Positions 19,868 through 39,094 of a stretch of 64,000 bases of DNA are shown in pieces. The stretch lies in assembly GCA_024280835.1 (NCBI GenBank), contig JAJRPJ010000010.1, forward strand, positions 248,001 through 312,000, given 5' to 3'. Every line of letters starts with the position of its first letter. Position 1 is the first letter of the stretch. The notes under the pieces were generated by a model, which saw only the letters and a program-made list of their open reading frames with translations, ran no database searches and was not told where the DNA came from. The DNA is from Candidatus Zixiibacteriota bacterium (lineage in GTDB: Bacteria; Zixibacteria; MSB-5A5; GN15; JACZUZ01). The position numbers and the translations under genes are program-made.

Positions 19868-21835
19868 TCAGGGGCAAACTGGCGGTGGGCCACCTGCAAA
19901 AATCAAGGCTATCAGATGAGTTATATCTCCAACATTCACTTGCCCGTCACCGTCTGCGTCGCCCGCTGCATTGGGAACAGGCCCTGGACCGCCGTTAAAT
20001 ACCCGTGTGATAAGAAATGTAACATCGCTAACATTCACAGAACCCGAGCCATCAGCGTCACCACAAACATACTGCTCTCCGCTAACAGAGCCAGGAAGAG
20101 CAGCAGGCGAATAGACTCCAAAGTCTGTTGAATATGAGAGTTGATATATACCGTAGGCCTGTGTCGTTAGCGTTAAGCTGGCCCCAGTTGGGTCGCCTGT
20201 GTATGTGAAGTACAGGGATGCAATAACGCCTGAGTCAGGGGCTAGATATGGCTGACTGTTATCGGATGAAGACACCAAGTTTAGTGTGACACGATTATTG
20301 AATGGGTCAACACTGATCGCCTCGGCAATCTCGAAATAATCTGTCCGCAGGCCAGCGGTTGAAACTGAAACAAACTCCAAATCAAATGGTCCCGACCAAC
20401 TGAATGGAATCTCAAACTTCGATGTTGGCAAAGAGTTGAGAGCCCAAATATCAATACGCACTGTGTCATCGCCAAGGCCAATCGGCTCGGTATTAATTCC
20501 CAAAGTGTCCGCAACCACCACAACCGAATCCAGCATTCTAGAAACATAAGTTGAATCAGCAGTTGAGGCTGTGAGTGTAGCATGGTACACGCCAGTTTGT
20601 GAATAGATATGGGCGGGGGATTGCTCTGTCGAGAAATTCCCGTCTCCGAAGTCCCAGCTCCAATCAACAATTGCGACATCGGAAGTACCTATGAAATTAG
20701 CTACATGCGGTGTGTTGCCTACTGTTTCGTCAACATAGGTTTGGGCGTGCAAACAAATATCACCATAACCATCACTGTCAGCGTCGATTTGATCGGGATT
20801 GGAAATCTGGGGGCAATTATCAGCGACATCGAGAATACCATCATTGTCATAGTCGGAACTATCAAAAAGAAACATCTCAGTTCGCAAATTCACCAAAGCC
20901 CAGATTTGTTTGTCGATTTGCTCTTGAGTATAAAAATCCATGCAGGCTTTGTTCGAATAAGACATCAAGTTGTCAACTTGAGGATTGTAAGCGTCGCTTC
21001 CACAACCGAATGGTGGTGAGACTCCGCCGCCATAAACGCAAGTTCCCAGCACTTTTCCTGAAAGAGTTGGGTCGGCTGGGGTTGAGCACAGCAAGTCTCC
21101 TGTGGTCAGGCAGTTTAGCCCATCTGGGCATTCTACGCCAAAGGCGGTTTCATGTGTATGGTACAAAAACAAATAGTGCCCAACTTCATGAGCGATTGTC
21201 GAGCTGTTACCAGAAACTCCAGAACAGGCGTTGTCCATAATAATGCCCTGTACTCCTTGGCCAGGGAATGAGGAAATACCACAAAGACCAGTGTTAGTTG
21301 TGAACCAAACATTCAGTGTGTTTTCGACAGGGCCTTGCTGGCGTAGGATGGTGTACATTGAAGAGCTATTTGTATTGTTATAGAAATTATTACTATGAAT
21401 CTCATGTACGTAATATTTGTCTCCATCAAGTAAACGGAAGAAACGAATACCGACTTGCTCGTAGTGTCGGTTGAGATCAATCATTGTTTGGTTCAAGCGC
21501 TCCTCAGAGAGACCGCCGCTACCATCGCTTCTGCGAACTACATGAAAAGTAATTGGTACATTGTAGATTATGGGAGCCTGAGATCCGCGCTGATTCGATG
21601 TAACACTAAGATCATTGGGGAGAGTCTTCTGCAGTTTCATCACTTCAGGCGTAACAACTGTTCCGCAATCATCAGCAAACGCTGGAACCGTCAGAAAAGC
21701 TAACGCTACCATAATTAGAGCAATTGCAAACGAAGTTGCCAGTGAACTCTTGTATCGCTTCTGTTGGATTTGCCGTTCTAAGGGAATTGTAGTCTCTGTA
21801 TTAGTCCGCACGAGTCGTCTTGCTGGAGATGTCAT
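19868..21835 (-). CDS. Secreted M43 (pappalysin-like) metalloprotease with PKD, cohesin-like and dockerin modules
   Basis: A 655-residue exported protease. After a long basic start and signal segment (about residues 33-54), the catalytic domain carries the zinc motif HEVGHYLFLYH (His216, Glu217, His220, His226) and a Met-turn NLMSYSNKACMDFYT. Then come a short calcium-binding segment (DNDGILDVADNCP), a PKD domain (SWDFGDGNFS), a cohesin-like beta-sandwich and a complete two-repeat type I dockerin (GDADGSGSVNVSDV and GDADGDGQVNVGDI). The dockerin could dock onto cohesin-bearing proteins such as the one near 15.4 kb. The whole set is typical of Zixibacteria-type secreted proteins. Confidence 0.85.
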   Translation of the reverse strand: MTSPARRLVRTNTETTIPLERQIQQKRYKSSLATSFAIALIMVALAFLTVPAFADDCGTVVTPEVMKLQKTLPNDLSVTSNQRGSQAPIIYNVPITFHVVRRSDGSGGLSEERLNQTMIDLNRHYEQVGIRFFRLLDGDKYYVHEIHSNNFYNNTNSSSMYTILRQQGPVENTLNVWFTTNTGLCGISSFPGQGVQGIIMDNACSGVSGNSSTIAHEVGHYLFLYHTHETAFGVECPDGLNCLTTGDLLCSTPADPTLSGKVLGTCVYGGGVSPPFGCGSDAYNPQVDNLMSYSNKACMDFYTQEQIDKQIWALVNLRTEMFLFDSSDYDNDGILDVADNCPQISNPDQIDADSDGYGDICLHAQTYVDETVGNTPHVANFIGTSDVAIVDWSWDFGDGNFSTEQSPAHIYSQTGVYHATLTASTADSTYVSRMLDSVVVVADTLGINTEPIGLGDDTVRIDIWALNSLPTSKFEIPFSWSGPFDLEFVSVSTAGLRTDYFEIAEAISVDPFNNRVTLNLVSSSDNSQPYLAPDSGVIASLYFTYTGDPTGASLTLTTQAYGIYQLSYSTDFGVYSPAALPGSVSGEQYVCGDADGSGSVNVSDVTFLITRVFNGGPGPVPNAAGDADGDGQVNVGDITHLIALIFAGGPPPVCP

Positions 21836-22228: not shown

Positions 22229-22930
22229 ATGAGAAAACTAACCCTAATCGCAGCCGTGGCAATCGCAGCAGGCACAATGTTGCTAACGGGTCCAACAGCT
22301 AGCGCAAATGGTTCAGGCGCTGGCATCTCTGGTTCACCACACGATTTTTCAACTGGTGTTGAAAATGCTTGGAATACCCGCGAAGAGCTTTGCCGCACAT
22401 GTCATGTTCCTCATGATCACCAACGCGACATTTATCAGCTTGGATTGTTGTGGAATCATTCCACATCAAGCGCCACTTATACAACCTACACGCTTGATGA
22501 TGGTACAGTAGTTGGACAGCCAGACGGCACATCTAAGCTTTGCTTGGCATGCCACGATGGTACAGTTGGTATTGATGATTGGGATGGCAAGAACACAGGC
22601 GCTGGAACAGTATTCATTAGTGATTACGACGCTGGTTTCCAAGTTCCTGGCAACATCACCAATGCAAATGATCTGAGTCGCACGCATCCATTGAGCGTTG
22701 TCTATGACTACGTTCCTGGCGTAACCGACGACATGAATGATCCGGCAACCACACCAATGGGAACCTCAGGTATGATTAATGAGATTCTTGACCTTGGTAA
22801 AGTTCAGTGCTCAAGCTGTCACGATGTTCATGACAATGAGTCAGTAGCAAATACACACCTCCTACGTGTGTCCCAAGAAGCTTCACAGGGACAGGCCTCT
22901 GGACTCTGCTTATCTTGCCATAACAAGTAA
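22229..22930 (+). CDS. Four-haem c-type cytochrome (doubled-CXXCH type)
   Basis: A 233-residue exported cytochrome with a clean signal peptide (ending TASAN). Haem sites are CRTCH, CLACH, CSSCH and CLSCH; the family trait of a CXXCH followed by a second His-rich segment is visible (CHVPHDHQRD, CHDVHDN). A ribosome site (AAGGATGAG) precedes the ATG. It shares close overall layout with the next gene, so the two arose by duplication. It probably moves electrons in the periplasm as part of the cluster that follows. Confidence 0.9.
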   Translation: MRKLTLIAAVAIAAGTMLLTGPTASANGSGAGISGSPHDFSTGVENAWNTREELCRTCHVPHDHQRDIYQLGLLWNHSTSSATYTTYTLDDGTVVGQPDGTSKLCLACHDGTVGIDDWDGKNTGAGTVFISDYDAGFQVPGNITNANDLSRTHPLSVVYDYVPGVTDDMNDPATTPMGTSGMINEILDLGKVQCSSCHDVHDNESVANTHLLRVSQEASQGQASGLCLSCHNK

Positions 22931-23003
22931 GCTTAACACAGAGATAGTATCTGACGCTAACAGAGGGGGCAGGGACGACACCCACTAGAAAGCGTCGAAA
23001 AAG

Positions 23004-23038
23004 AATCGGTCAGGCAATTACTGCCTGACCGATTTTCT
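23004..23038 (+). terminator. Intrinsic terminator after first cytochrome gene
   Basis: AATCGGTCAGGCA and TGCCTGACCGATT form a perfect 13-bp stem with a five-base loop, followed by TTCTTG. It separates the first cytochrome gene from the rest, so the first gene can be expressed on its own and more strongly. Confidence 0.85.
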
Positions 23039-23327
23039 TGTTGTGCTCGGAATCTATGGGCAAACCTGTCGCAAGATGAACCATTGTCCGTGGTTCTTAC
23101 TTGTCTCCACTAAAGATTGTGGCGCAAGATTGAACAAAATCCCCTGTACCAATCCCGCTAGAAAATGTTCGATAATATTTGAATTACGTGTACCGATTCT
23201 AACAATAAGCCAGAGACATTGTTTGATTGGTCTCTGGAGATACTCACCTACTGCTTATCGGCTTCAGTCGGGGCACAAGCAGTTGGGGCTACATGTAACT
23301 GTTACGAAATGTTCAGCGAGGCGAAAC

Positions 23328-24047
23328 ATGTCGAATTCTAATCACAACAGCGCTTCAAGAGCGCAATACCTATCGATTTTTCTTGGTTGTCTGATACTAT
23401 TGGTATTCACCACAGGGGCAATTTTTGCCGAAGGCGGGGGCATAGTCAACTCACCGCATGATTTTTCTAACCTTGGCCAGTCAGCAAACAGTCGGAATAC
23501 TACTGGTGAGCTTTGCGTCGCATGTCATGTGCCTCATGATTTTGGCCAAGATATTTACCAAAGCGGACTGCTTTGGAATCACGCTCCCTCCGAGGCCACA
23601 TACACAACATATGTCTCATCGGCTGGTCTTAGCGCCCAGCAGCCATCAGGCACATCAAAATTGTGCCTTGGATGTCATGACGGAACGATTGCTATAGACG
23701 ACTACGACGGCGCCTCTGGCGGCGGGTCTGCTTTTATCGGTGATTACAATTCAGCTTTTCAAGTCCCAGGTCGACTTACACAACATAACAATTCCGGCAG
23801 GACTCATCCCGTGGGGATTGAATATATTTATGATCCATTCGATGCCGATGGCCTACATAGTCCGTCATCGCCCTTGGGTTTTTCGGGTTCGATTAATGAT
23901 GTTCTCGACAATGGGAAAGTCGTTTGCTCAAGTTGCCATGATGTGCACAACAATGGGGCACAAAGAGGTTCACAACTATTACGAGCGCCAATGAAAGCAT
24001 CACAAGGCTCCGCCTCTGGGCTTTGCTTATCTTGCCACAAGAAATGA
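23328..24047 (+). CDS. Four-haem c-type cytochrome, paralog of the preceding gene
   Basis: A 239-residue protein. The start at 23328 is chosen because it gives a proper signal peptide (hydrophobic residues about 15-34, ending IFAEG) with a GAGG site upstream; the open frame before it is not coding in style. Haem sites are CVACH, CLGCH, CSSCH and CLSCH, and segments such as NSPHDFS, YTTY, GTSKLCLGCHDGT and GSASGLCLSCHKK match the previous cytochrome nearly position by position. It is a periplasmic electron carrier by inference. The 280 bases before it hold no gene I can support. Confidence 0.88.
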   Translation: MSNSNHNSASRAQYLSIFLGCLILLVFTTGAIFAEGGGIVNSPHDFSNLGQSANSRNTTGELCVACHVPHDFGQDIYQSGLLWNHAPSEATYTTYVSSAGLSAQQPSGTSKLCLGCHDGTIAIDDYDGASGGGSAFIGDYNSAFQVPGRLTQHNNSGRTHPVGIEYIYDPFDADGLHSPSSPLGFSGSINDVLDNGKVVCSSCHDVHNNGAQRGSQLLRAPMKASQGSASGLCLSCHKK

Positions 24048-24244
24048 TTCCATGCATTCTTTCGCATATGACGATTGCAAGCCTGATGGTGTCAATTAAA
24101 GTTGCAATTCTCTCTTTTGAGAAAAACGGAAATAGTGGACTAATAGCTTCTCTATTCATCGGAATATGCTATATTTGAATCGCCCAATAAGGGGCAGTGA
24201 AATTGTAGCATGTAGTTATAATTTATCAGGGATAGGTAAAGAAA

Positions 24245-25486
24245 ATGAAACACAACCAGAAGCTCGGCCATTTTGACAGAACTAGGCTGCTTGTGGCTCA
24301 AGCGCCAAGCGTTCCAGGCAATAGAATCAAATGTCTTGGGACGAAGTTAGTATTTAGTGCAATAATGCTATTGGTATTTACAGGGTGCGGCGGAAAAGCC
24401 TCACTGAGTAGTGTCACACGTTTCTACCCGCCACCACCACAAATGCCACGAGTTCAATTTTTGGTCCGCTACCAAAACAGTCAGGACCTTGGAATCAAAA
24501 GCGGCGGCTTTCGTGAATTTGTCACTGGCGAAAAAGAGCAAAATGATCAACTCATCAAACCCCATGCAGCAGTCTACCATCAAGGGAAACTCTACATCGC
24601 CGATTCACGGCGCTTTGAAGTTGTTGTCATGGATATTGTCAATAAGACAATGGAGCCACTAGGTAAAGAAGAAGGCATAGTCTTCGCCAAACCGATGTTT
24701 GTTGCAATCGCCGATGATGGTTTCAAATACATCGCTGACAATGGCCGTAAGCGCATTTTTGTCTTCAATGAAAAAGATGAATACCAAAGTGTCATCGGTG
24801 AAGACGGACAATTCTCGCCGACATGTGTCGCTGTGCATGGCGACAAGTTGTATGTTGCAGATATCACTGGCAAAGAAATTGAAATTCTGAATCGTAAGAC
24901 AGGTGAGTTAATTCGAACATTTTCTGGTCCAGAAGACGAAGCAGGCTTCGGCCCATTCCGCATGCCCGTGAACATCACAGTTTCTCCCAAAGGACATCTC
25001 TTTGTCTCGGACATGCTAGCTAATACTGTCTATGAGTTCGACGAAGATTTAAAGCTTGTTCGCAACTACGGACGCCCAGGTGACACATATGGGACATTTA
25101 CCCGCGCTAGAGGATTAGCAGTTGACTCAGCAGGGTTGCTCAGTGTCGCCGATGCAGCCTTTGAAAACGTGCAAATGTTTGAGCCAGAAGAGGGGAACCT
25201 TGTCTTGTTCTTTGGCGGCTCAGGCGGTGAGCCAGGGGACATGTATTTACCCTCTGGAGTGACAATTTCGTATTCTGATTTGGATGTGTTCAAGTCTTTT
25301 GTTGATCCACGTTTTGAATTGGAATATGTCATAGTTGTTGCTAATCAATACAGCCAAGACGGTGTCTCTATCTACGGGTTTGGCAAAGGTGACGAAAAGC
25401 ATTTTGAAGACTTTTCTTCGACTCCGATTGACGCGGACTCAACATCCTTCAAGACAGCGTCTGATTCTGAAGTTGGAAATGAATAA
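24245..25486 (+). CDS. NHL-repeat propeller lipoprotein
   Basis: A 413-residue protein with a long N-terminal region and a lipobox at VFTGC (residue about 48). The mature part has at least five NHL-type blades, recognisable by YIADSRRFEVVVMD, YIADNGRKRIFVF, YVADITGKEIEIL, FVSDMLANTVYEF and SVADAAFENVQMF. Such propellers act as binding platforms; NHL proteins are often encoded with multihaem cytochromes in metal-reducing bacteria. It lies 26 bases before the five-haem gene and is likely co-transcribed. Confidence 0.8.
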   Translation: MKHNQKLGHFDRTRLLVAQAPSVPGNRIKCLGTKLVFSAIMLLVFTGCGGKASLSSVTRFYPPPPQMPRVQFLVRYQNSQDLGIKSGGFREFVTGEKEQNDQLIKPHAAVYHQGKLYIADSRRFEVVVMDIVNKTMEPLGKEEGIVFAKPMFVAIADDGFKYIADNGRKRIFVFNEKDEYQSVIGEDGQFSPTCVAVHGDKLYVADITGKEIEILNRKTGELIRTFSGPEDEAGFGPFRMPVNITVSPKGHLFVSDMLANTVYEFDEDLKLVRNYGRPGDTYGTFTRARGLAVDSAGLLSVADAAFENVQMFEPEEGNLVLFFGGSGGEPGDMYLPSGVTISYSDLDVFKSFVDPRFELEYVIVVANQYSQDGVSIYGFGKGDEKHFEDFSSTPIDADSTSFKTASDSEVGNE

Positions 25487-25512
25487 AGATAGTTGTAGGA
25501 GCGACTGATACT

Positions 25513-26205
25513 ATGAAGCCCATTTCTGATAACCGCAATAATCAAGCGCTATTCCCTGCGAAGAGATTGGCGTTGATTATTGTCTTGAGTATGACACTCA
25601 GCGCATCCTTTAGCGCCTGTGGCGCTGGCGGCCGCAATGTCCTCACCTTTCTCTTTGATGGAGCGCCTGAAGAGGACACAACAGCAGATGGGGTTGGATC
25701 TGATACAATTACTGATCTTCGCGCGTTTCGCGCAGAGAAGCGTCAGGCTAGAATGGACTCTGTCACCGCGGCAAATCAAATGCAAATGCACCAGCCGTAC
25801 GCCGATAAAAAATGTTCGGCATGTCATACAATGCCTGATAGAGGTGAGTCAAGGCGTAATTTGTCGTTTAATTTCGGCTCTAATGGTGAGACAAGTTTCA
25901 TGAAAATGCCTGTTGAGACTTTGTGCATTACTTGCCATGAGGACAAATCAGCTATGTATGCCGAAGAGCAGGGAATGAGTATCCATTCACCTGTTGAAGA
26001 AGGCGAATGTCTGACATGTCATCAACCGCATCGCTCACGATTTGCCCATCTCCTCAATACAGAAACTGCGCGTGAGTTATGTCTGGGCTGTCACGATGAA
26101 TCTATCCCAGAAGGCGAAGATGATCATCCTGAGCTAGAAGAAGACGATGACTGTACCGAATGTCATAATCCACATATGTCCGAGGATGAATTCTTGATGA
26201 ATTAG
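25513..26205 (+). CDS. Five-haem c-type cytochrome lipoprotein
   Basis: A 230-residue protein with a signal sequence ending in a lipobox-like FSAC, so probably lipid-anchored at the outer membrane. Five haem sites are present: CSACH, CITCH, CLTCH, CLGCH and CTECH, spread over the last 130 residues, with the doubled-motif pattern (CHQPHRSRFAHLL, CHNPHMSEDE). The tail is very acidic. A protein of this kind directly before a barrel gene is what one expects for the periplasmic-side cytochrome of a porin-cytochrome complex. Confidence 0.88.
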   Translation: MKPISDNRNNQALFPAKRLALIIVLSMTLSASFSACGAGGRNVLTFLFDGAPEEDTTADGVGSDTITDLRAFRAEKRQARMDSVTAANQMQMHQPYADKKCSACHTMPDRGESRRNLSFNFGSNGETSFMKMPVETLCITCHEDKSAMYAEEQGMSIHSPVEEGECLTCHQPHRSRFAHLLNTETARELCLGCHDESIPEGEDDHPELEEDDDCTECHNPHMSEDEFLMN

Positions 26206-26265
26206 TGTGATTGGGCGCCGAATTTGTCACACCGCATGTGACAGAGTCGGAGTTGTGGGTGAGCG

Positions 26266-28287
26266 ATGAGGAAACCAAATAACACCATAAGCGGGGGAAA
26301 AGTGGAATTCAAGCGGGGAGTGTGTTTGGCTCTTGGGCTGGCCTCGGGAGTTCTCCTATCTGCTATATTAGCAGAGGCGGTTCCGGCGCAGGGAATCAAA
26401 TTATTTCAAGCAGAACGCAAATCAGGCTATCTGGAGATCAACAGTTTTTCCGATAAACTATCAAGAGATTGGTCGTCGCTACGTGGTCCTTTGCGTGACA
26501 ATGAACTAGGTGTCGGAACATCGCTCTATTTGAACTATGTCGGCTCCATATATCATCGGCGTTTGGTTGAATGGAACGCCGATGGACGTGTCACGTTAAA
26601 AAAGAGACGTTTTACAAACTCTACAATCAACATCACAGAAAAGTTTTCAGAATACCTACAGGACTACACTCTAGGGGCAACGATCTTCAAGGATCGGAAT
26701 ATCTCAGCGAGATTTTTTGCCACACGGAATACTTCAACAGCTGACGCCGACTTTTCTGCCTCATCAAATGTCAACACGCGCGGCTACGGTGGCTCTTTAT
26801 CATTCATCAAAGGCCGACTAGTTCAGATTTTGTCCGCTAGGAAAAATAAGTACGCCTCTGATGGAATTGTGAATGTGGAAGAGAAACGCTCCGTTGTAAT
26901 ATATGATGCAAGTTTCCGTAAGAATAAACTCACCAGTACAGCAAATTATGAATACAACGACATAGAGTTTGTCACAAGTGGCGCCTCCTTTAATGGGCAC
27001 AGTGTTAGGGTACAGAATTATTTCAATTTAGATGAACGTGGCAAACACACTTTTAGCTTAGGTGGCAATTACTTCGAGCGCAATGCGGCTTCAAGTAACA
27101 AGAACGGACAAATTGGAATCGGTACTCACCAACAAATCACAAGTTCTCTCGAAAGTTCTGGCTCATTCTCGTTTCGGCGCAATGAAGTCGAGCGTTCAAC
27201 TTCTGAAACCAACTCAATCTCTGGAAACGCTTCGCATCGTCTCTATCAAAGTCTAATCAGCACATTCACTTTTGACGGCTATAGGACAATATTCAATCAA
27301 GGTAGCGAGAGAGAATATAACCCTAGAGCAAATTTTTCATATCGCAAAACAACTTTCTTTGGCGCTTTGCGCATGCGGTATCTGCTGGGCTATCGCAAAC
27401 ATGATGAACGATTCAATCAGGGCGCATATTTTGCCCCACGGCAACGTCAAGATGAATTCGAATTCCTACCAGGCGCTCCACTGATCCTGAGCGCTGTAGC
27501 GCTAGATACTCTTTCGATTGTTGTGACATCTCCTGACTCAAGCGCCTTATTTAGTTTCTTGAATGGAGTTCATTATGAAATAGTAGAGACTGGGTCTCGT
27601 ATTGAGATAATAATCCTCTTGACTGGGGGGGTCCAATTTGGTGATTCGCTTCTCGTGACATACACTGAGCAGTTCAGTCCTGACAAAACTAATGCTTCAT
27701 TTGTTTTTGAAGAAGTGGAGAATCGATACGGAGTAACCTTAGAATTTACTCATGGTTTCCAACTAAGCGCAGATAGAGTTTCGCAAAGACAAATTCTTCT
27801 GAGTGGCCTAGCCCCCAATCAGCTAGATGATACTCGAGCAGACCAAGTGGTCGCTAGTTGGCGCTTCAAAGACGCTCGTCTCAAAGCAGAATATCAGAGG
27901 CGTCGGACAGTTCGAAATCCATTTAAAACCCGCTCTCTCTCTGGGCAACTATCCAGAGGAATAGCAAGACGCATGACAATCTCGACTTCGACAACCTACT
28001 CTGTGACTGATTTCACTGACCAGACAGGACGATCCAAGCTAATCACTGTTAATAGTTCGCTTTGGCGACGGTTTAGCCCATACTTGAACTCTCGTATGCG
28101 TCTTAGTTTCCTCAAACGAATCGGACGCAGAGATGATGGAGAGTCATGGGTTCTATCGTCAATAACACGGTACAATGTACGTTTGTTACTCGGTGAATTA
28201 CGTATTGACTATTATGATCGTCAAGTCGACCTTGTTGGTGACGAAAACCGTTTCAGTATCAAGCTTAGTATTAAGCGCCAATTATAA
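26266..28287 (+). CDS. Outer-membrane beta-barrel protein in cytochrome cluster
   Basis: A 673-residue protein with a signal peptide (residues about 18-42, ending PAQG). From residue 80 on it shows many alternating polar/hydrophobic strands of about 10 residues with aromatic girdle residues (SGSFSFRRNEVERS, GALRMRYLLGYRKH, LRIDYYDRQVDLVG), and ends FSIKLSIKRQL, close to a membrane-inserting terminal strand. A globular part around residues 405-480 (PLILSAVALDTLSIVV) may sit in or on the barrel. It would be the pore through which a cytochrome passes electrons. Function is from context and fold style, not from a named family. Confidence 0.65.
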   Translation: MRKPNNTISGGKVEFKRGVCLALGLASGVLLSAILAEAVPAQGIKLFQAERKSGYLEINSFSDKLSRDWSSLRGPLRDNELGVGTSLYLNYVGSIYHRRLVEWNADGRVTLKKRRFTNSTINITEKFSEYLQDYTLGATIFKDRNISARFFATRNTSTADADFSASSNVNTRGYGGSLSFIKGRLVQILSARKNKYASDGIVNVEEKRSVVIYDASFRKNKLTSTANYEYNDIEFVTSGASFNGHSVRVQNYFNLDERGKHTFSLGGNYFERNAASSNKNGQIGIGTHQQITSSLESSGSFSFRRNEVERSTSETNSISGNASHRLYQSLISTFTFDGYRTIFNQGSEREYNPRANFSYRKTTFFGALRMRYLLGYRKHDERFNQGAYFAPRQRQDEFEFLPGAPLILSAVALDTLSIVVTSPDSSALFSFLNGVHYEIVETGSRIEIIILLTGGVQFGDSLLVTYTEQFSPDKTNASFVFEEVENRYGVTLEFTHGFQLSADRVSQRQILLSGLAPNQLDDTRADQVVASWRFKDARLKAEYQRRRTVRNPFKTRSLSGQLSRGIARRMTISTSTTYSVTDFTDQTGRSKLITVNSSLWRRFSPYLNSRMRLSFLKRIGRRDDGESWVLSSITRYNVRLLLGELRIDYYDRQVDLVGDENRFSIKLSIKRQL

Positions 28288-28319
28288 GAATAATCAAATT
28301 GCAAATTGAAGATAAAGCC

Positions 28320-29402
28320 ATGACCTTTCAGCAAGAACACAAAAGCGCCTCTACGATTAGTTCCAGTAACGCCAACAACGCGCTGCTGGCTTTGGTGACG
28401 ATTGCGCTCTTTGTTAGTGTGCTAGTTAATGTGCTAATACCAAACATAAGTTGCGCCACTGAACAAGGGCAGAGAATAGTTCCTGACTATCGCTATCCAG
28501 CGGACACAAGCGGCCCAGGACTTCGCTTAGTGTCATTATTGCACGACACTCGTTCCAAAGTCTTCGCCCAAGGAGTCCCGAAGTCTAAAGACAAAGGCAA
28601 GCGAACGTATTTTGCTCGCCCACGTTTTGTGGCTCTCGGAAATAATGGCGAAGTCTACACTCTCGATGGCGCTCGTGGTGTTATCTACCAGATGACATAT
28701 GCAGCTGGAGCGCTAGAGAGTTCAGCCAGGTTCCCCAAGAATAAGCGTAGGTTTCTATCTCCAATTGCTATTGCAGTAGCTCCAGATGGTTCTATCTGGC
28801 TGACAGATTCGCGGAGCAAGGCGGTCTTTGTGTTGGATGCCAGTGGAGAATTAGTCGATTCATTGACTGGCGCTTTTGTTCGACCTGTTGGAATCGCCTA
28901 TAATGAGTACACCAAACGAATGCTGGTGACAGATCTAGCCAGCAATACTATTACTGAAATCTCTCTGAGTCGCGAAGTTGTCGCCACACACGGGGCGCCT
29001 GATAGTGTTGTCATCGAGGGGCCATCATTTGTTGCTGTTGGTCCTTCGGGGGACATCTATATTGTCGAGGCGCTAGGAGGTGGTGTCGCAATCTTTTCAC
29101 CAAACTGGAAACCACTTAGAAAGCTAGGCGGTTTTGGCGACGGCCCAGGTTTCTTTTCGAAACCCAAGGGCATTGCTGTTGATGGAGAGGGTCGGGTGTA
29201 TGTTGCTGATGCGCTCTTCGACAATGTGCAGATTTTCGATAAAGAGGGCCGCTTACTACTAACTTTGGGGGCTAGTGGTTCGGCGCCAGGGCAGTTTGTG
29301 CAGCCAATGGGAATCGCGATTGGCACTAGCGGGGACATCTATATTGCCGATTCATATAATGGACGAGTTCAAGTGTTTCGATGGGAGAATATAAGCAAGT
29401 GA
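28320..29402 (+). CDS. NHL-repeat propeller protein, exported
   Basis: A 360-residue protein; the ATG at 28320 is preferred over a TTG seven codons upstream. A membrane segment (residues about 25-45, ALLALVTIALFVSVLVNVLI) serves as signal or anchor. At least five NHL blades follow, ending with very regular ones (GIAVDGEGRVYVADALFDNV and GIAIGTSGDIYIADSYNGRV). It differs from the first NHL protein of the cluster in signal type. Its last codons overlap the start of the large cytochrome gene, so the two are translationally coupled and likely work together. Confidence 0.8.
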   Translation: MTFQQEHKSASTISSSNANNALLALVTIALFVSVLVNVLIPNISCATEQGQRIVPDYRYPADTSGPGLRLVSLLHDTRSKVFAQGVPKSKDKGKRTYFARPRFVALGNNGEVYTLDGARGVIYQMTYAAGALESSARFPKNKRRFLSPIAIAVAPDGSIWLTDSRSKAVFVLDASGELVDSLTGAFVRPVGIAYNEYTKRMLVTDLASNTITEISLSREVVATHGAPDSVVIEGPSFVAVGPSGDIYIVEALGGGVAIFSPNWKPLRKLGGFGDGPGFFSKPKGIAVDGEGRVYVADALFDNVQIFDKEGRLLLTLGASGSAPGQFVQPMGIAIGTSGDIYIADSYNGRVQVFRWENISK

Positions 29403-31153
29403 TACACAAATTTTCAAAACAAAACCGCTGCGAGCAGAACTCCGATAGCCGTCAAAGCGCAAGCCATAGCCGCTCACAATTACTGGTAGCCCTGGGCGTG
29501 CCAATCATTCTCTTGGTTGCGGCCCAGTTGGTGTGGGCACAATCGATTTCGCAAACCAAACACAATCTCTCAAGCTCTGGACTAGGTACTGTCAAAGCCA
29601 CCACTGAAAGTCGAATCTGTGTCTTTTGTCATGCGCCACACAAATCGACTGGCAACTCGCCATTGTGGAACAGGGAAGACAGTCGCGCGACCTACACAAC
29701 TTACACCTCCCCAACTCTGATCTCAACACCAGGCCAACCAACTGGCTCAAGCAGACTGTGTCTCTCATGCCATGATGGAACAATCGCATTGGGAGCTATC
29801 GCCTCCGAATCGGCAGTGATTGAATTTCAAGGCGGAATAGTGTTCTTACCAGCTGATCATTCTTTACTTGGTGATAATCTCGCCGATGACCATCCGATTT
29901 CTTTCATCTACGACAATGCGCTGGCCAACGCTAACACCGAACTTAAATTCCCCGCCGAATTGCCAGCAGCTTTGCCTCTCGATCATCGGGGAAGAATGCA
30001 GTGCGCAACTTGCCACGACGCCCATCAGGACGATTTCGGGAAATTCCTCCGCAAAGATCCAAAGTTTTCCCAGCTCTGTATCAGTTGTCATTCCAAATCA
30101 GGTTGGGTTGGCTCGGTTCATGAATCATCGAATCAAACTTGGAACGGCGTCGGAATTGACCCATGGCAACATGCCGATGGGTTGACTGTTGCTGAGAACG
30201 CCTGCCAAAATTGCCACCAACCACATGAAGCGGGGCAGCCGATTCATTTGCTTGGCTCAGTGCAGGAAGAAAACAATTGTTTGACTTGTCACAATGGCAA
30301 TGTCGGCTCAGATATTAGCTCTGCAATAAATCTGTTTTCAAACCATCCCGTGACATTGACAACAGGAGTACATCAATTCAGTGAAGACCCGCTGACCATG
30401 ACACGTCATGTAGAATGCGTTGACTGTCACAATCCACATGCAACTTCCAACGTTGATTTACCGCCGCCGTCTTTGCCGGGAGCGCTGAAGGATGTCTCTG
30501 GTATTGATATCAATGGTAATCCTATAGATCCTGCCAATAGTTCCTATGAAGTCTGTCTCAAATGCCATGGTGATAGTCATGGAGCAACGTCTGTTGTCAC
30601 ACGGCAAATCCAATCTTTGAATACTCGTCTTGACATAAGTCCCACTGCGATTTCATTTCACCCTGTCACAACCATCGGGATGAACCCAAATGTTCCATCC
30701 CTGATTTCTCCTATGACAGAAAACTCTCTTGTATCCTGTTCGGATTGCCACTCATCACCCCCTGGAAATCCAGCGGGAACGCATGGGTCACAATTTGGCC
30801 CCTTACTAAAATCGAATTATTCCACACTTGACAATACTCAGGAATCATCCTTCGCCTATGCGCTATGTTACTCCTGCCACAGCAGAAATTCGATCCTCAA
30901 TGATGATAGCTTCGGCGAACATAAGAAGCATATAGTAGGCGAAGACGCTCCCTGCTCGGTGTGTCATGATCCACATGGAGTTCCTAGTAGCCAGGGGAAT
31001 TCGACAAATAACAGTCATTTAATAAACTTCGATATCGCGATTGTCACACCTGACCCTAATACTGGTCTTCTCAAGTTCGAAGACTTGGGCTCCAATAAAG
31101 GAAGATGCTATTTACTTTGCCACGGTAAAAAACATAGTCCCAAAAAGTATTGA
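29381..31153 (+). CDS. Large multihaem c-type cytochrome (11 CXXCH plus one CX3CH)
   Basis: A 590-residue exported cytochrome; signal segment residues about 34-54 (LLVALGVPIILLVAAQLVWAQ). Haem sites in order are CVFCH, CLSCH, CATCH, CISCH, CQNCH, CLTCH, CVDCH, CLKCH, CSDCH, CYSCH, CSVCH, and at the C-terminus CYLLCH, a CX3CH variant. Several come in doubled form (CHAPHKS, CHQPHEA, CHNPHAT, CHDPHGV). Its size and place after the barrel gene make it the candidate outer-face cytochrome of the conduit. The start overlaps the NHL gene by 22 bases; a GTG at 29399 is an alternative start. Confidence 0.9.
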   Translation: MGEYKQVIHKFSKQNRCEQNSDSRQSASHSRSQLLVALGVPIILLVAAQLVWAQSISQTKHNLSSSGLGTVKATTESRICVFCHAPHKSTGNSPLWNREDSRATYTTYTSPTLISTPGQPTGSSRLCLSCHDGTIALGAIASESAVIEFQGGIVFLPADHSLLGDNLADDHPISFIYDNALANANTELKFPAELPAALPLDHRGRMQCATCHDAHQDDFGKFLRKDPKFSQLCISCHSKSGWVGSVHESSNQTWNGVGIDPWQHADGLTVAENACQNCHQPHEAGQPIHLLGSVQEENNCLTCHNGNVGSDISSAINLFSNHPVTLTTGVHQFSEDPLTMTRHVECVDCHNPHATSNVDLPPPSLPGALKDVSGIDINGNPIDPANSSYEVCLKCHGDSHGATSVVTRQIQSLNTRLDISPTAISFHPVTTIGMNPNVPSLISPMTENSLVSCSDCHSSPPGNPAGTHGSQFGPLLKSNYSTLDNTQESSFAYALCYSCHSRNSILNDDSFGEHKKHIVGEDAPCSVCHDPHGVPSSQGNSTNNSHLINFDIAIVTPDPNTGLLKFEDLGSNKGRCYLLCHGKKHSPKKY

Positions 31154-31326
31154 CAGAGAGACAATATGGTCTTAGGCATGATTGTTGTGCGACCATAGTC
31201 TGTACGCTTGCCATTTCATGGCCCACATTTGCGCGCAACTAATTCCTTTCTTTACCGATAAATAGTCTTATATTACTATTTGTGTAAAAAGGATGTTGAT
31301 GCGCCAAAAATGTGGGATATTCATAA

Positions 31327-33861
31327 GTGCAAGATAGCAAAAGCTCTGCAAGACAAAACGCGAAAGCGCGATTTCCGTATTTCTCAGGTATCTTTCTAAT
31401 TTCATTAGCGACACTTTCGCTTGAAATTCTTCTAACTCGAGTCTTCGCGGTGACCTATGGCTACAGTTATGCTTTCTTAGTCATCTCACTGGGCTTGCTG
31501 GGAATCGGCTTTTCGACTACAGTCGTTTTCCTTTTGCAAAATAAGATATCTGATGAAAATGTGCCTAGAGTTCTTTCCCTCTCGTCGATTGCATTTGGAA
31601 TCTCGGTATTCTTGCTTCTCTATTTGACTGTAAACTTACAATTCTCATTCTCCAAAGAATACCTGTCCTCGTCAGTCACCGCTGGTTTGACTGGGATTGG
31701 ATTGCTAGCTCTAATCGTCATGCCATTTTTCTTCTCAGGAGCTTGTGTAACACTCGCTCTTTCTCGCCGCTCTAGCATGATTTCAAACCTCTACTCATGG
31801 GATTTGGCGGGGGCTGGAATCGGCTGCGCGCTCAGTCTAGTTTTGCTGACAATGCTATCCGCAGAGTCAGCCACAATATTTGTCGGCGCTATTGGAGCAT
31901 CGGCTGGTGTCGGTTTCGCCTTAGCTGAAAAAAGTCGGTCGGTCCGTCTAGGAGCTATTGGTCTAACAGTTCTGCTGTCCGTACTTGCGATAGTTAATGA
32001 GGGTTCTGACCTCGCCAAGATTAGCTACGTCAATGCACAGGAAATTACTGATTCAGAGTTTTCAATTGCAGAAGTCGGCGCCCTAGATTACAGCTCCGAG
32101 CCAGCTAGAATCCTGAGCGATTGGAATCCAGTTATATACACAGAAATTCTCGGTCCATATGCTAGTGACATACCATATCTCTACGGACTTTCAAAAACGG
32201 TTCAGAATGTCAAACCTAAGTATCTGCGAGTGCGCATTGACGGCTGGCAGTATCAATGTCCAATTGTCAAATATGACAATCAACTGGACAGCATTCAGTA
32301 TTTTCAAAAGTGCGTGGATTATTTGGCGTTTCATCTAAAAGATAGCGCCACAGCTTTTGTGATTGGCTCGGGCGGTGGGTTGGATGTCTTGGCGTTAACA
32401 ACTTTCAATTGCCAGAAAATTATTGGCGCCGATTTTAATCCATCACTTCGTGACTTGTTGCTCAATGAACTAAAAGAGTATTCTGGTGGCCTTTATACAC
32501 AGCCGAAAATCGAAATCCGCACCGACGAAGGTCGCAGCTTGCTCGCGCGGACCGAAGAGCCGATTGATGTGCTGATTTTCCCACAAGTTGGAGACTGGTT
32601 TTCTCAGGCCGCCTCAGGAGCCATTCTCAACGAAGGCATTCTGCACACTGTTGAGGCCTACAATCAGTATTTCGACAAGCTCGCTCCTGGCGGTATCCTG
32701 AGTATCACCAACTTCAATTTGAATCAAGAGTTGATTATTGAGTTCCGCCAGATTTTCACTATGCTTGAAGCTCTTAAACTCAGAGGCGTAACTGACGTTA
32801 GAGACCACTTATTGATTGTGCGCAATATACGAGTCCTTGATAGTGATGGCGGGAAGGGAACTGTCAATATGCTTTACTTCCGTGATGCAATTACACCAGA
32901 ACAATTAGCAAAAGTTGATTCAATTTCCCAAAGTTTGGATTTCGAAATCATGGTCGCCCCAGACCGTGAAGCAAAGTATCCCTATGACATAATTCTCTCT
33001 CCAAACGGACAGGAAACACTGCAAAAACGTTGGGGAGTATTGTTTGAGCCAGTCTACGAAAACCGTCCATACATCCTGACGTTTTTAAGTTTTGAGCAGA
33101 TACTTGATCGTATGCTGGGTAAGACAACTCAAAATATTGAGACAAGCGATCGATTTACTCGTGGCGCTAGTTCGGTAACTCAGACAAGCTATGAAAGTTT
33201 GACAATCGTCTATATGATATTGATAGTCGTTTCAGGTTTGGCCTTTGGCGCCATCTTGCTACCACTCCTTTGGAAAAAACGACATCGCGAGTCATTGCCG
33301 CCGCCTTGGGCGCTCTTTTACTTTGCCGCTTTGGGTGTTGGTTTCATGCTCATCGAAGTGCCTCTGCTTTCAATGTACCGTGTGTTCTTGGGCTATCCAG
33401 TCTATGCCCTCAGCGTGGCTTTATTCTCGCTCCTACTGTTCGCAGGAATAGGAAGCGCAATTTCGGCTCGCATTGCTGACGACCAAATCGTCAAGGCCCT
33501 CCCGCGCGTTATTGGCGGCATTACGCTGATGATTATTGTCTATACTTTTGCCATCACACCTATATTTCATATAGCATTTGGTTGGCCGACATGGCTGCGA
33601 ATTATTTTTGCATCATTGACATTGGCGCCGCTAGCGATTCCACTCGGGATGGCGCTACCTTTAGGGCTTCGTCAAGTCAGTCTAACAAATAGTGACGCAA
33701 TTCCATGGGCGTGGGGAGTGAACAGTTTTACCTCAGTAGCCGCAACTGTCATCGCCTTCATGGTGGTCTTGCATTTTGGCTTCACTATTGCTCTACTGGT
33801 GGGAGCTGGATTCTATGCTATCGCTGGGGGCTTCGCACTCCGCCTAAGCTCCTCGCGATAA
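31327..33861 (+). CDS. Membrane protein with spermidine-synthase-like domain
   Basis: An 844-residue protein with a GTG start. About eight membrane helices at the N-terminus (residues 15-230) and about six at the C-terminus (630-840) enclose a central SAM/decarboxy-SAM binding fold: AFVIGSGGGLDVLAL is the glycine loop, IIGADFNPS the acidic second strand, and VLIFPQVGDWFSQ with FDKLAPGGILSITNF follow as in spermidine synthases. Such large membrane forms are often found near multihaem cytochromes, but their reaction is not known to me. It is 170 bases after the large cytochrome gene on the same strand. Confidence 0.7.
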   Translation: MQDSKSSARQNAKARFPYFSGIFLISLATLSLEILLTRVFAVTYGYSYAFLVISLGLLGIGFSTTVVFLLQNKISDENVPRVLSLSSIAFGISVFLLLYLTVNLQFSFSKEYLSSSVTAGLTGIGLLALIVMPFFFSGACVTLALSRRSSMISNLYSWDLAGAGIGCALSLVLLTMLSAESATIFVGAIGASAGVGFALAEKSRSVRLGAIGLTVLLSVLAIVNEGSDLAKISYVNAQEITDSEFSIAEVGALDYSSEPARILSDWNPVIYTEILGPYASDIPYLYGLSKTVQNVKPKYLRVRIDGWQYQCPIVKYDNQLDSIQYFQKCVDYLAFHLKDSATAFVIGSGGGLDVLALTTFNCQKIIGADFNPSLRDLLLNELKEYSGGLYTQPKIEIRTDEGRSLLARTEEPIDVLIFPQVGDWFSQAASGAILNEGILHTVEAYNQYFDKLAPGGILSITNFNLNQELIIEFRQIFTMLEALKLRGVTDVRDHLLIVRNIRVLDSDGGKGTVNMLYFRDAITPEQLAKVDSISQSLDFEIMVAPDREAKYPYDIILSPNGQETLQKRWGVLFEPVYENRPYILTFLSFEQILDRMLGKTTQNIETSDRFTRGASSVTQTSYESLTIVYMILIVVSGLAFGAILLPLLWKKRHRESLPPPWALFYFAALGVGFMLIEVPLLSMYRVFLGYPVYALSVALFSLLLFAGIGSAISARIADDQIVKALPRVIGGITLMIIVYTFAITPIFHIAFGWPTWLRIIFASLTLAPLAIPLGMALPLGLRQVSLTNSDAIPWAWGVNSFTSVAATVIAFMVVLHFGFTIALLVGAGFYAIAGGFALRLSSSR

Positions 33862-35278: not shown

Positions 35279-35638
35279 GCCAGGCGCAAGGGCTTCTCTT
35301 TGATGACAAGATACATTGATGATTGTATGGAGGATTTGTGAAAATGTTTCAATACCGACACGATTCAGTTTCTAGCGGTTAAATCGTATTTGGTTCAATC
35401 AGGAACAGTGTGTGAATTAGTTGTCGGCTTCAAGTCCATGATAGGAAGCGCCGATACAGTACGATATAAAGCAATTGGCAAGTCGGTACGGATTTAAGGA
35501 ATATCTTAGCTAGGTATTTCCTTGTTGCAAATCAGAGTCTTGGAGAATCATCAGTTTCATCCAGTGACGGCAACTGATTGTGAGTTACTCTGTTTAAGGA
35601 TTAGGGGTAGGGCATTGCTCGGACAATTTAAAGACATA
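35279..35638. other. Intergenic gap between divergent lipid and kinase genes
   Basis: No supported gene. A GGAGG at about 35330 is followed by an ATG that opens only a 12-codon frame, too short to call. A TTG at 35522 is in frame with the kinase gene and could extend it by 39 residues. Confidence 0.4.
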
Positions 35639-38600
35639 ATGCGAAGGCGAACATACTATCACGTCGTGATGGCGCTGATGTTTTGTGGTATTGTTGTCAC
35701 GTACTTGAGTATTCGATTTTCGAATATTCAACTGCTACAAGATACTTCTTCAATTATAGAAGTTTCTAGTATTCTATTCTTGTTGTCTTTGGCTTGTATT
35801 GCACTGACCGTCAAATGTTCGACGGACTTGAAACGCGTGGCAGCCACAGCCGACAATACCAAAAGCAATTTCAAGGATATTCAAAAATACCATGAGGCCC
35901 TCTTTAGTTTGACCAAGAACTCTAGTGTCGTTGATGGATTACTCTCAGACTCCTCACGAGTAGTCACAGAAACACTAACCCAAGCCCTTGCAGTCGAACG
36001 CGCCAGTATTTGGCTCCTCAATGAAAGTGGGACTGCAATTTCATGTCTTGACTTGCATTGCCAGTCAACAGGCGAACATTCAATCCCAAAAGCTATATCA
36101 ATTGATGAATACCCTGAATATTTCAAGTCTCTGGATAACTCTAGGTCAATCGGAGTCTCTGATGCGCTAACAGATAAGCGAACCAAAGAAATTTGCAAGA
36201 ACTATCTAATCCCTAGGGACATTCGCTCTACAATTGACTCTCCGATTCGAGTTTCGGGAAAGGTCGTTGGCTACATATTTGTTAGTTGTGTGGGTGAAAG
36301 ACGAGAATGGAGTTCTCATGATTCAGGCTTTATTGCCGCCATTGCAGATCAATTCGCTCAGGTTGTCGTCAGCGCCGAAAAGCGAAAAATGTATGAGTCT
36401 CTGCATGAAGTCATGTCGACTACTTCCTCGCTCAGCGGCAAAGAGTTTTTCGACATGCTTGTTTGCAAGTTGTGTTCGGTTCTGAATGTGGAATTTGCAA
36501 TGGTTACAAAATGGGTCGATGGGTCAAATGAGAGCATGAAAAGCATGTCGCTCGGTGTCGGGGGCACACTAAGTAGTGATATGGAATACAAACTAGAAGG
36601 TACACCGTGTAATGATGTTGTCCAAAAAGGTTTCATGCACGTCCGAGGTGATGCCATATCACTTTATCCAGAAGATGAAATATTGGTGGAATGTTGCATT
36701 GAATCATATATGGGAACCTTACTATTTGATTCTAATGAGAATGCTATTGGTATCCTCAACGTGTTCCATACTGCCCCAATTCCACAAGAAGATATTGCAA
36801 GAACTCTATTAGAGATTTTTGCTTCTCGCGCTGCTATAGAACTAGTGCGAATGGAAACGCTTGAAGAGCTAAACGCCAACAAGGCGCTTCTAAATGCTAC
36901 ACTCGATTCGACAGCTGATGGCATCATGGTTGCCAACAAGGACGGCGAGGTGATGTTAGCCAATAAGCGTTTCGCCGAACTTTGGGGTATCCCAAGTGAG
37001 TTAGTAGAAGAAGCTGATGACGACAAAATGTTAGAGCATGCGGTCGGGCAGTTGCTAGAGCCAGATCGCTTCCTAAAGAAGGTTCAGGATCTGTACAATT
37101 CAGATAGAGATAGCTTTGATGTAGTGTTCTTCAAGGATGGACGTATGTTTGAACGCTACTCTCGACCTTTGATGTTGGATGGCGCACCAGCGGGTAGAGT
37201 TTGGAGTTTCCGCGATATTACAGTGAAAGAGCGAGCCGTTGCCTCATTGCAGGAAAGTGAAGACCGTTACCACAGTATATTTGATTCCTCCAATGACGGA
37301 TTGATTATTTTTGACTCTCAAGGCGAGATAAAGGAGGCAAATCGCGCTGCCAGTAGGATGCACGGCTGGTCTGAGGTAGAATTCTTGAAACTTCAACCAC
37401 ACGAATTCATTCACAAGAATTCTTTGCCAGTCTTCCAAGAATTCTTGGAGCGTTTGGCAACCGATGCGTCGTACCAGTGCGTTGCTAGAGATATTTGTAA
37501 AGATGGCTCGATAATCGATATTGAAGTCTCTGGGGTGCAACTTTCTATTAGTGGTGAGATTCACTACCTAGGGGTTGTTAGAGAAGTCACTGAGCGCAAA
37601 AGGCGTGAACGTCAGAATCGTGATATGCAAGAAAAGCTCGAACGCGCCGAACGTATGCAATCAATCGGGGCGCTCGCAGGTGGTGTCGCTCATGACTTGA
37701 ACAATATTCTTGGCCCGCTTGTGGCCTATCCAGAACTAATTCTCATGAAATTGCCTGCAGACAGCCCACTGCGGGGACGCATTGAACTAATTGGCAAGTC
37801 CGCCAAGCACGCCGCAGAGGTTATTCAGGATCTGTTGACTCTAGCTCGTCGCGGTCGGGTCGAAATGCAGCCAGGCAATATGAATTCTATTGTCAAAGAT
37901 GTCATGCTTTCGACAAATTTCGTTGATCTTGAACGAAGAAATACAAACGTCAAGGTGACAGTAAATCTTGAAACTGACCTGGGAATTGTCAATGTCTCAA
38001 AATCTCACTTAGCAAAAGCAATACTGAATCTCTGCGCGAATGCCTTCAAGGCCATGCCGAGCAGTGGAGAGCTGACAATTGAGACAACACAAGTGTATCT
38101 TGAGCGCCTCTTGACTGGAGATAGTGGCCTCGAACCTGGAGATTATGTTGGCCTAAGAATTCGCGACACAGGTGAAGGCATGACCAAAGAACACCTCAGT
38201 AAGCTCTTTGAACCTTACTACAATAGGAATCATGTAGCTAGTTCTACCAGCGGGCTAGGGCTATCGATTGTCTATGGAGTCATCAAGGATCATAGTGGTT
38301 ATTATGATGTGATGTCCGAAGTTGACCGCGGTACAGAGTTCATTATCTATTTGCCGATAGTTACGGGAGAAGTCCAGCCTGAGTACTTGAAGCCAAGCAA
38401 TTATCGTGGTTCCGAGACAATTTTGGTTGTCGATGATGATGGTAGCCAACGGGACTTGGCCTGTGCGCTCTTAGAGAGTCTTGGATATGACGTCGTTTCA
38501 GCTAGCAATGGAGAGCACGGTGTCGAGATATTGAAAGCCCGTCCAAGCGATATTGTGGTTTTGGACATGATTATGGAAGATGGCTTTGATGGGTTGGATA

Positions 38601-38800
38601 CATATCGAGAAATGCTCAAGAGCCAGCCCCACCAAAAAGCAGTCATTGTAACTGGATTCGCAGCAACTGACAGAGTCGATGAAATGCATAGACTTGGAGC
38701 TGGAACTTATGTCCGGAAACCCTACTCTCGAGACTCTATTGGCAAGGCAGTCCGAGAGACTCTAGACAGAGCCGTGCATGTCGAAACCATAAAAGCCTAA
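35639..38800 (+). CDS. Hybrid sensor histidine kinase (two membrane helices, GAF, GAF, PAS, PAS, kinase, receiver)
   Basis: About 1053 residues from the ATG at 35639, where the first membrane helix begins soon after (YYHVVMALMFCGIVVTYL). Two helices are followed by two GAF-like domains (about 100-420), two PAS domains (about 415-535 and 540-670), then the kinase: H-box GALAGGVAHDLNNI near base 37690, N-box NLCANAFKAM, G1 DTGEGM and G2 GLGLSIVYG. The C-terminal receiver has ILVVDDDGS, the phosphorylated Asp in VVLDMIMEDG and Lys in VRKPYS. The signal it senses is unknown. It is followed by a terminator, so it is a single-gene unit. Confidence 0.88.
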   Translation: MRRRTYYHVVMALMFCGIVVTYLSIRFSNIQLLQDTSSIIEVSSILFLLSLACIALTVKCSTDLKRVAATADNTKSNFKDIQKYHEALFSLTKNSSVVDGLLSDSSRVVTETLTQALAVERASIWLLNESGTAISCLDLHCQSTGEHSIPKAISIDEYPEYFKSLDNSRSIGVSDALTDKRTKEICKNYLIPRDIRSTIDSPIRVSGKVVGYIFVSCVGERREWSSHDSGFIAAIADQFAQVVVSAEKRKMYESLHEVMSTTSSLSGKEFFDMLVCKLCSVLNVEFAMVTKWVDGSNESMKSMSLGVGGTLSSDMEYKLEGTPCNDVVQKGFMHVRGDAISLYPEDEILVECCIESYMGTLLFDSNENAIGILNVFHTAPIPQEDIARTLLEIFASRAAIELVRMETLEELNANKALLNATLDSTADGIMVANKDGEVMLANKRFAELWGIPSELVEEADDDKMLEHAVGQLLEPDRFLKKVQDLYNSDRDSFDVVFFKDGRMFERYSRPLMLDGAPAGRVWSFRDITVKERAVASLQESEDRYHSIFDSSNDGLIIFDSQGEIKEANRAASRMHGWSEVEFLKLQPHEFIHKNSLPVFQEFLERLATDASYQCVARDICKDGSIIDIEVSGVQLSISGEIHYLGVVREVTERKRRERQNRDMQEKLERAERMQSIGALAGGVAHDLNNILGPLVAYPELILMKLPADSPLRGRIELIGKSAKHAAEVIQDLLTLARRGRVEMQPGNMNSIVKDVMLSTNFVDLERRNTNVKVTVNLETDLGIVNVSKSHLAKAILNLCANAFKAMPSSGELTIETTQVYLERLLTGDSGLEPGDYVGLRIRDTGEGMTKEHLSKLFEPYYNRNHVASSTSGLGLSIVYGVIKDHSGYYDVMSEVDRGTEFIIYLPIVTGEVQPEYLKPSNYRGSETILVVDDDGSQRDLACALLESLGYDVVSASNGEHGVEILKARPSDIVVLDMIMEDGFDGLDTYREMLKSQPHQKAVIVTGFAATDRVDEMHRLGAGTYVRKPYSRDSIGKAVRETLDRAVHVETIKA

Positions 38801-38919: not shown

Positions 38920-39094
38920 ACGTTGTTTCAAATTTGACTTGGTATGTGCAATCGTCTCAATATGCCAAAAACATTACCGATAACTAGTATACGCTGTTTG
39001 CTCTTGGCATGGCGTCGTGAATTCAGTTTCATAAAAGTTCAACCGTCTAAACTTTGAAGTTGGGCATGCTTTGTTAGTCAAAGTCGTTTCTAGA

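Follow-up and report, generated by a model that had tools for sequence, protein, structure and literature searches.

A conserved gene cluster encoding OmcE-family cytochromes, a predicted outer-membrane barrel and NHL propellers: a candidate electron conduit coupled to an extracellular filament

Introduction

The described systems closest to the gene cluster analysed here are the extracellular cytochrome filaments and the porin–cytochrome complexes. OmcE is the subunit of an extracellular cytochrome filament of Geobacter sulfurreducens (PDB 7TFS), in which, according to a review, one haem takes a histidine ligand from the adjacent subunit (PMC12954529). The OmcS cytochrome carries six haems and has no sequence similarity to OmcE (PMC12977616, PMC9473688). 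One paper proposes for the osc (OmcS companion) genes, citing Shen 2025, that OscH acts in folding, OscEFG in secretion and OscD in filament morphology (PMC13194489). The way such filaments are attached to the outer membrane and the point at which they take up electrons have been named as an open question (PMC12307469), and it is disputed whether they carry physiological current at all (PMC11077965, PMC12580347).

A second relevant system is Uet (undecahaem electron transfer). In PMC10734462, which cites Eddie 2022 mSphere, the uetABCDEFGHIJ genes are assigned to Candidatus Tenderia electrophaga and Gallionella, and the products are presented as a porin–cytochrome complex comprising an extracellular tetrahaem cytochrome (UetA), a barrel (UetC), NHL proteins (UetH/I) and an undecahaem cytochrome (UetJ). 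Uet is also named in PMC13386937 and PMC12575090. The direction of electron flow discussed for the two systems differs, being uptake for Uet and release for OmcE.

Here we describe a cluster of cytochrome, barrel and propeller genes in a 64 kb stretch of DNA (hereafter the window) from a member of Candidatus Zixiibacteriota.

Results

Eight open reading frames lie in a row on the plus strand at positions 22229–33861 of the window, as a sequence-only reading of the same DNA had listed them. Their CXXCH counts are, in order, 4, 4, 0, 5, 0, 0, 11 and 0, and one additional CX3CH motif (CYLLCH) brings the large cytochrome to 12 sites, in agreement with the 4, 4, 5 and 12 sites given by that reading. 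No other ORF within the 64 kb window contains two or more CXXCH motifs. The first two genes, termed E1 and E2, are followed by gaps of 397 and 197 bases. The genes for a first NHL-repeat protein (NHL1), a pentahaem cytochrome (C5), the barrel (BAR), a second NHL-repeat protein (NHL2) and the 12-site cytochrome (C12) are then separated by 26, 60, 11 and −22 bases, and so appear to be spaced as in one transcription unit. Two gene starts call for comment. The E2 frame is open from a GTG at 23043, but the ATG at 23328, giving a protein of 239 amino acids, is the more likely start because the 95 extra residues are missing in relatives. The TTG start of NHL2 is the assignment of the ORF tool and is uncertain.

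Other genes flank the cluster. Upstream and divergent from it, at 19868–21835 on the minus strand, is a gene for a secreted metallopeptidase of the M43 type, which carries PKD, thrombospondin type 3 and dockerin-like repeats. Downstream, on the plus strand, two very large multi-PAS histidine kinases are encoded in tandem (35522–38800 and 39071–42571), and these are followed by a 1192-aa protein (42835–46413) with no Pfam match at 1e-5.

E1 (22229–22930, plus strand) is a tetrahaem cytochrome c with a Sec signal peptide. In phmmer searches it matched OmcE (7tfs) over its full length with an E-value of 6.4e-15, and the structure 9yuq with an E-value of 1.2e-12. E2 (23328–24047, plus strand) is a second tetrahaem cytochrome of the same family and also matched OmcE over its full length (E 1.4e-12). 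These two entries were the only credible solved-structure matches of E1 and E2 in the sequence search, 9yuq being a 16-chain entry named merely as a putative multihaem cytochrome. The two proteins are 56% identical to each other and 29–30% identical to OmcE. Across an alignment of 14 sequences, OmcE and 9yuq among them, the four CXXCH motifs and the four distal histidines of OmcE are invariant, as are the eight cysteines, and no histidine outside these CXXCH motifs and the four others is invariant. OmcE, 9yuq, E1, E2 and the N-terminal portion of C12 have all eight histidines in common. E1 and E2 are thus homologues of the OmcE filament subunit. A quick tree of the tetrahaem domains separates two sides with an SH-aLRT support of 93: nearly all of the free-standing tetrahaem proteins, E1 included, side with OmcE and 9yuq, and on the opposite side are the C12 domains, split-off adaptor-like genes and one myxococcal tetrahaem protein.

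The OmcE fold occurs a third time in the cluster, within C12 (29381–31153, plus strand). Residues ∼ 54–240 of this protein form an OmcE-fold tetrahaem domain, and the remainder is an octahaem region without a solved relative. The AlphaFold2 model of C12 has a pLDDT of 87, and its sole significant match among solved structures is OmcE 7tfs (E 8.8e-9, TM-score 0.69 by target length). At 34% identity over 202 alignment columns, this match is in keeping with an OmcE-like domain at the N-terminus. The N-terminal region of C12, its first 200 residues, is homologous to OmcE. C12 as a whole shares 42–52% identity with 46 relatives from many phyla. In most relatives of the same phylum it is split into an adjacent tetrahaem gene and a 7+1-haem gene. 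In one proteobacterial locus (L187, 7425–13982) two undecahaem C12-like genes lie close together with only one other large ORF between them.

BAR (26266–28287, plus strand) is a protein of 673 aa that the sequence-only reading had taken for an outer-membrane barrel, and structure prediction agrees with high confidence. The AlphaFold2 model, built from 52 sequences, has a mean pLDDT of 89.1 and a pTM of 0.74, and contains about 28 long strands between residues 47 and 672, a count taken from the DSSP line that may be in error by a strand or two. A beta domain is inserted at residues ∼ 384–478, and most of the near-invariant residues of the protein (E396, L408, D436, Y437 and Y466) sit within it. 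The top solved matches in Foldseek are large outer-membrane barrels, with MtrB (6r2q_B) second at an E-value of 7.9e-9. Since the TM-scores are low (0.2–0.4) and large barrels as a group are matched, this result does not point to a conduit in particular. The strand pattern, taken with the Foldseek matches, predicts BAR to be a large closed outer-membrane barrel.

BAR thus shares with the porin–cytochrome class the feature of a large predicted barrel encoded together with multihaem cytochromes, and the cluster resembles MtrCAB and MtoAB in pairing a large outer-membrane barrel with multihaem partners. Unlike those systems, the cluster has no decahaem MtrA, and BAR has no MtrB_PioB match. Its assignment to MtrB/PioB was rejected, PF11854 matching neither BAR nor any of its 51 aligned relatives, and no MtrB_PioB gene was found in BAR's own genome. 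BAR also has no family match in Pfam or NCBIfam.

A single-sequence search with BAR across the phylum returned only the same genus. The wider family surfaced through the neighbours of OmcE-like genes and a two-sequence profile of BAR and its same-genus relative. In hhalign comparisons of BAR with barrels from other families of the phylum, the two-sequence profile gave no match, whereas a deep profile gave an E-value of 2e-40. A phage tail-tube model of NCBIfam gives weak matches to 15 of the 52 barrels (best E 5e-8, below the cut-off), and in the four barrels inspected the match falls in the region of the inserted domain. A phage origin for the barrels was set aside, and these matches are read as a possible shared beta fold.

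The order of these genes is conserved far beyond chance. It is identical in a relative of the same genus (L034), and an OmcE-like gene is present in 16 of 133 genomes of the phylum; in most of these the cluster is larger, and its core, with a homologous barrel, is the same. In other families of the phylum (L037–L047, L050) the larger cluster reads 17-haem, NHL, 9-haem, 10-haem, NHL and tetrahaem, then barrel, NHL, tetrahaem, 7+1-haem, NHL and 5-haem; in some of these loci giant proteins follow, with or without haem sites.

When named bacterial genomes were scanned with the tetrahaem alignment, at least 490 relatives emerged, and the best 80 loci among them were examined. C12 is present in 76 of these 80, a count that reflects selection because the loci were picked by likeness to the N-terminal domain of C12; this affects the C12 count and not its neighbours. 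A barrel homologue is found in 70 of the same 80 loci, barrel, NHL and C12 genes are consecutive in 54, and the whole order tetrahaem–NHL–(c5)–barrel–NHL–C12 is kept in 26. The module order recurs in at least eight phyla, with module loci in Planctomycetota, Pseudomonadota, Verrucomicrobiota, Bacteroidota and Nitrospirota, and also in Thermodesulfobacteriota, Myxococcota, Acidobacteriota, Chlorobiota and Ignavibacteriota. The gene order, whose presence in relatives the sequence-only reading had asked to be checked, is thus found well beyond the genus. In several Bacteroidota and Ignavibacteriota the NHL2–C12 pair stands ahead of the remaining genes.

Barrel, NHL2 and C12 mostly remain together while the C5 slot varies. 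C5 (25513–26205, plus strand) is a doubled-CXXCH cytochrome (Pfam Paired_CXXCH_1, E 1.9e-25) with five CXXCH motifs and a lipobox-like FSAC sequence, and is possibly a lipoprotein. Its position in relatives is occupied by 5- to 21-haem proteins or by nothing: 9- to 21-haem proteins replace it in many Bacteroidota and Verrucomicrobiota, and it is absent from many gammaproteobacterial loci, so the set can do without it. NHL1 (24245–25486, plus strand; Pfam NHL, E 1.8e-15) is a predicted lipoprotein with a lipobox-like FTGC sequence, a lipobox being present in 32 of 48 relatives, and among the best 80 loci its gene directly precedes the (c5–)barrel genes in 47. NHL2 (28299–29402, plus strand; Pfam NHL, E 2.2e-28) directly precedes the C12 gene in 71 of the same 80 loci.

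The last of the eight genes (31327–33861, plus strand) encodes a membrane protein with a weak spermidine-synthase-like stretch, its only match being NCBIfam PRK00811 at an E-value of 0.036. The sequence-only reading had counted it as a member of the cluster. It trails the cluster in a single relative, that of the same genus, and for this reason it falls outside the conserved set. In that relative (L034, 4112–6673) the gene is present as two ORFs, from a frameshift or an assembly error.

Discussion

The reading favoured here, with modest confidence, is that the cluster specifies a conduit carrying electrons across the outer membrane and coupled to an extracellular cytochrome filament of the OmcE type. 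In this scheme BAR would span the outer membrane, and C5, probably held there by a lipid, would link the barrel to the electron carriers of the periplasm. C12 would sit in or on the barrel, where its octahaem part could conduct electrons through, and its OmcE-fold domain would offer the first filament-like unit, from which E1 and/or E2 would polymerise outward. NHL1 and NHL2 may help to export, assemble or hold the filament, a role like that proposed for the propeller encoded at the OmcS locus. The conduit would thereby feed an OmcE-type filament and may also anchor and assemble it. How C5, C12 and the NHL proteins would touch the barrel is guesswork, and the electrons could flow in either direction. 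Two points weigh against this reading: the identity of E1 and E2 to OmcE is low, at 29–30%, and physiological current through cytochrome filaments is itself contested (PMC11077965, PMC12580347).

The adaptor step assigned to C12 is suggested by its fused OmcE-fold domain, the distinct lineage to which C12 belongs and the near-constant place of C12 beside the barrel. More tentatively, undecahaem proteins of the C12 kind could as a class form the filament base, with the octahaem segment in or on the barrel and the fused OmcE-fold unit nucleating the tetrahaem filament and joining it electrically. Should this hold, which is possible though far from assured, conduit and nanowire would be one continuous chain of haems from the periplasm to the outside.

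A rather unlikely alternative is that the proteins form a plain Uet-like porin–cytochrome conduit without a filament, E1 and E2 being monomeric tetrahaem cytochromes of the surface or periplasm, alike in fold to OmcE but not polymerising, and C12 the terminal reductase or oxidase. The account of Uet in PMC10734462, as a porin–cytochrome complex with an extracellular tetrahaem protein, fits such a scheme, and so does the low identity of E1 and E2 to OmcE. However, every haem ligand of OmcE is kept, the fourth distal histidine included, and in the tree the tetrahaem proteins side with the solved OmcE-family structures and not with C12. Moreover, if a haem is ligated from the neighbouring subunit, as the review states for OmcE (PMC12954529), a lone monomer might lack one ligand. 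The sequence-only reading had proposed a plain conduit through the outer membrane. The conduit part of that proposal is supported by the barrel encoded with cytochromes and by the conserved order, but the homology to a filament subunit had been missed; with E1 and E2 related to OmcE, and an OmcE fold at the N-terminus of C12, the likely role shifts to that of a conduit serving a filament.

It is also conceivable, but improbable, that the cluster is a machine for filament export and assembly only, in which the barrel is the secretion channel for E1 and E2, assembly is the task of the NHL proteins and C12, and electrons reach the filament by another route, as has been suggested for OscD and OscEFG of the OmcS locus. 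By their descriptions, the osc cluster and the present one are alike in that a filament cytochrome is encoded with putative secretion and morphology proteins. The osc cluster of Shen and co-workers reportedly includes a propeller-like protein and channel-like proteins. The functions in folding, secretion and morphology of the OmcS filament proposed in PMC13194489 speak for an export role here too, as do the OmcE-orthologue loci, which likewise have NHL and barrel-like genes. Against it, the most conserved neighbour of the barrel is a cytochrome with 12 haems, for which a channel serving secretion alone would have no use, and the cluster in the window lacks a peptidyl-prolyl isomerase. Finally, genomes of this sort often encode NHL and doubled-CXXCH proteins, but that unrelated envelope cytochromes and propellers came to lie together by chance is barely credible given the same order in many phyla and a barrel homology that was reached starting with no more than the window barrel and its relative in the genus.

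Returning to the filament-coupled conduit, its components can be set beside those of the described systems. Compared by composition, not by sequence, Uet and the cluster share a tetrahaem protein, a barrel, two NHL proteins and a cytochrome with 11 CXXCH motifs. Uet has in addition a peptidyl-prolyl isomerase, three trihaem proteins and a TPR protein, none of which is among the ORFs at 22229–33861, whereas the cluster has a 5-haem protein and a second tetrahaem protein. The proteobacterial loci L115, L178 and L190 contain the same module with trihaem genes, and the exact Uet gene order was not found in the class- and order-level samples of proteobacterial genomes. The OmcE-orthologue loci of Geobacter relatives (L150–L160) consist mostly of 10-haem, 8-haem, NHL lipoprotein, OmcE and a barrel-like protein of about 750 aa; unlike the cluster, they have no C12-like gene. 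Their barrel-like protein shows a remote similarity to BAR (hhalign probability 90%, E 1.7e-6).

The claim of a new type of conduit is not upheld, since the Uet set had already been published (PMC10734462) and the OmcS and OmcE loci of Geobacter and its relatives likewise combine filament cytochromes with propellers and channel or barrel-like proteins (PMC13194489 for OmcS). To judge from its composition, the combination would be that of the published Uet set and not wholly new. A text search that did not include the defining papers found no publication linking UetA or UetJ to OmcE, which is weak evidence of novelty.

Overall, genes for a cytochrome of a filament family, a barrel and a cytochrome bearing a domain of that same family are found together in many phyla. 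Were C12 the adaptor, the published but little-studied Uet conduit and the nanowire field would be describing parts of one machine, and the question of how filaments are anchored would become testable with named genes.
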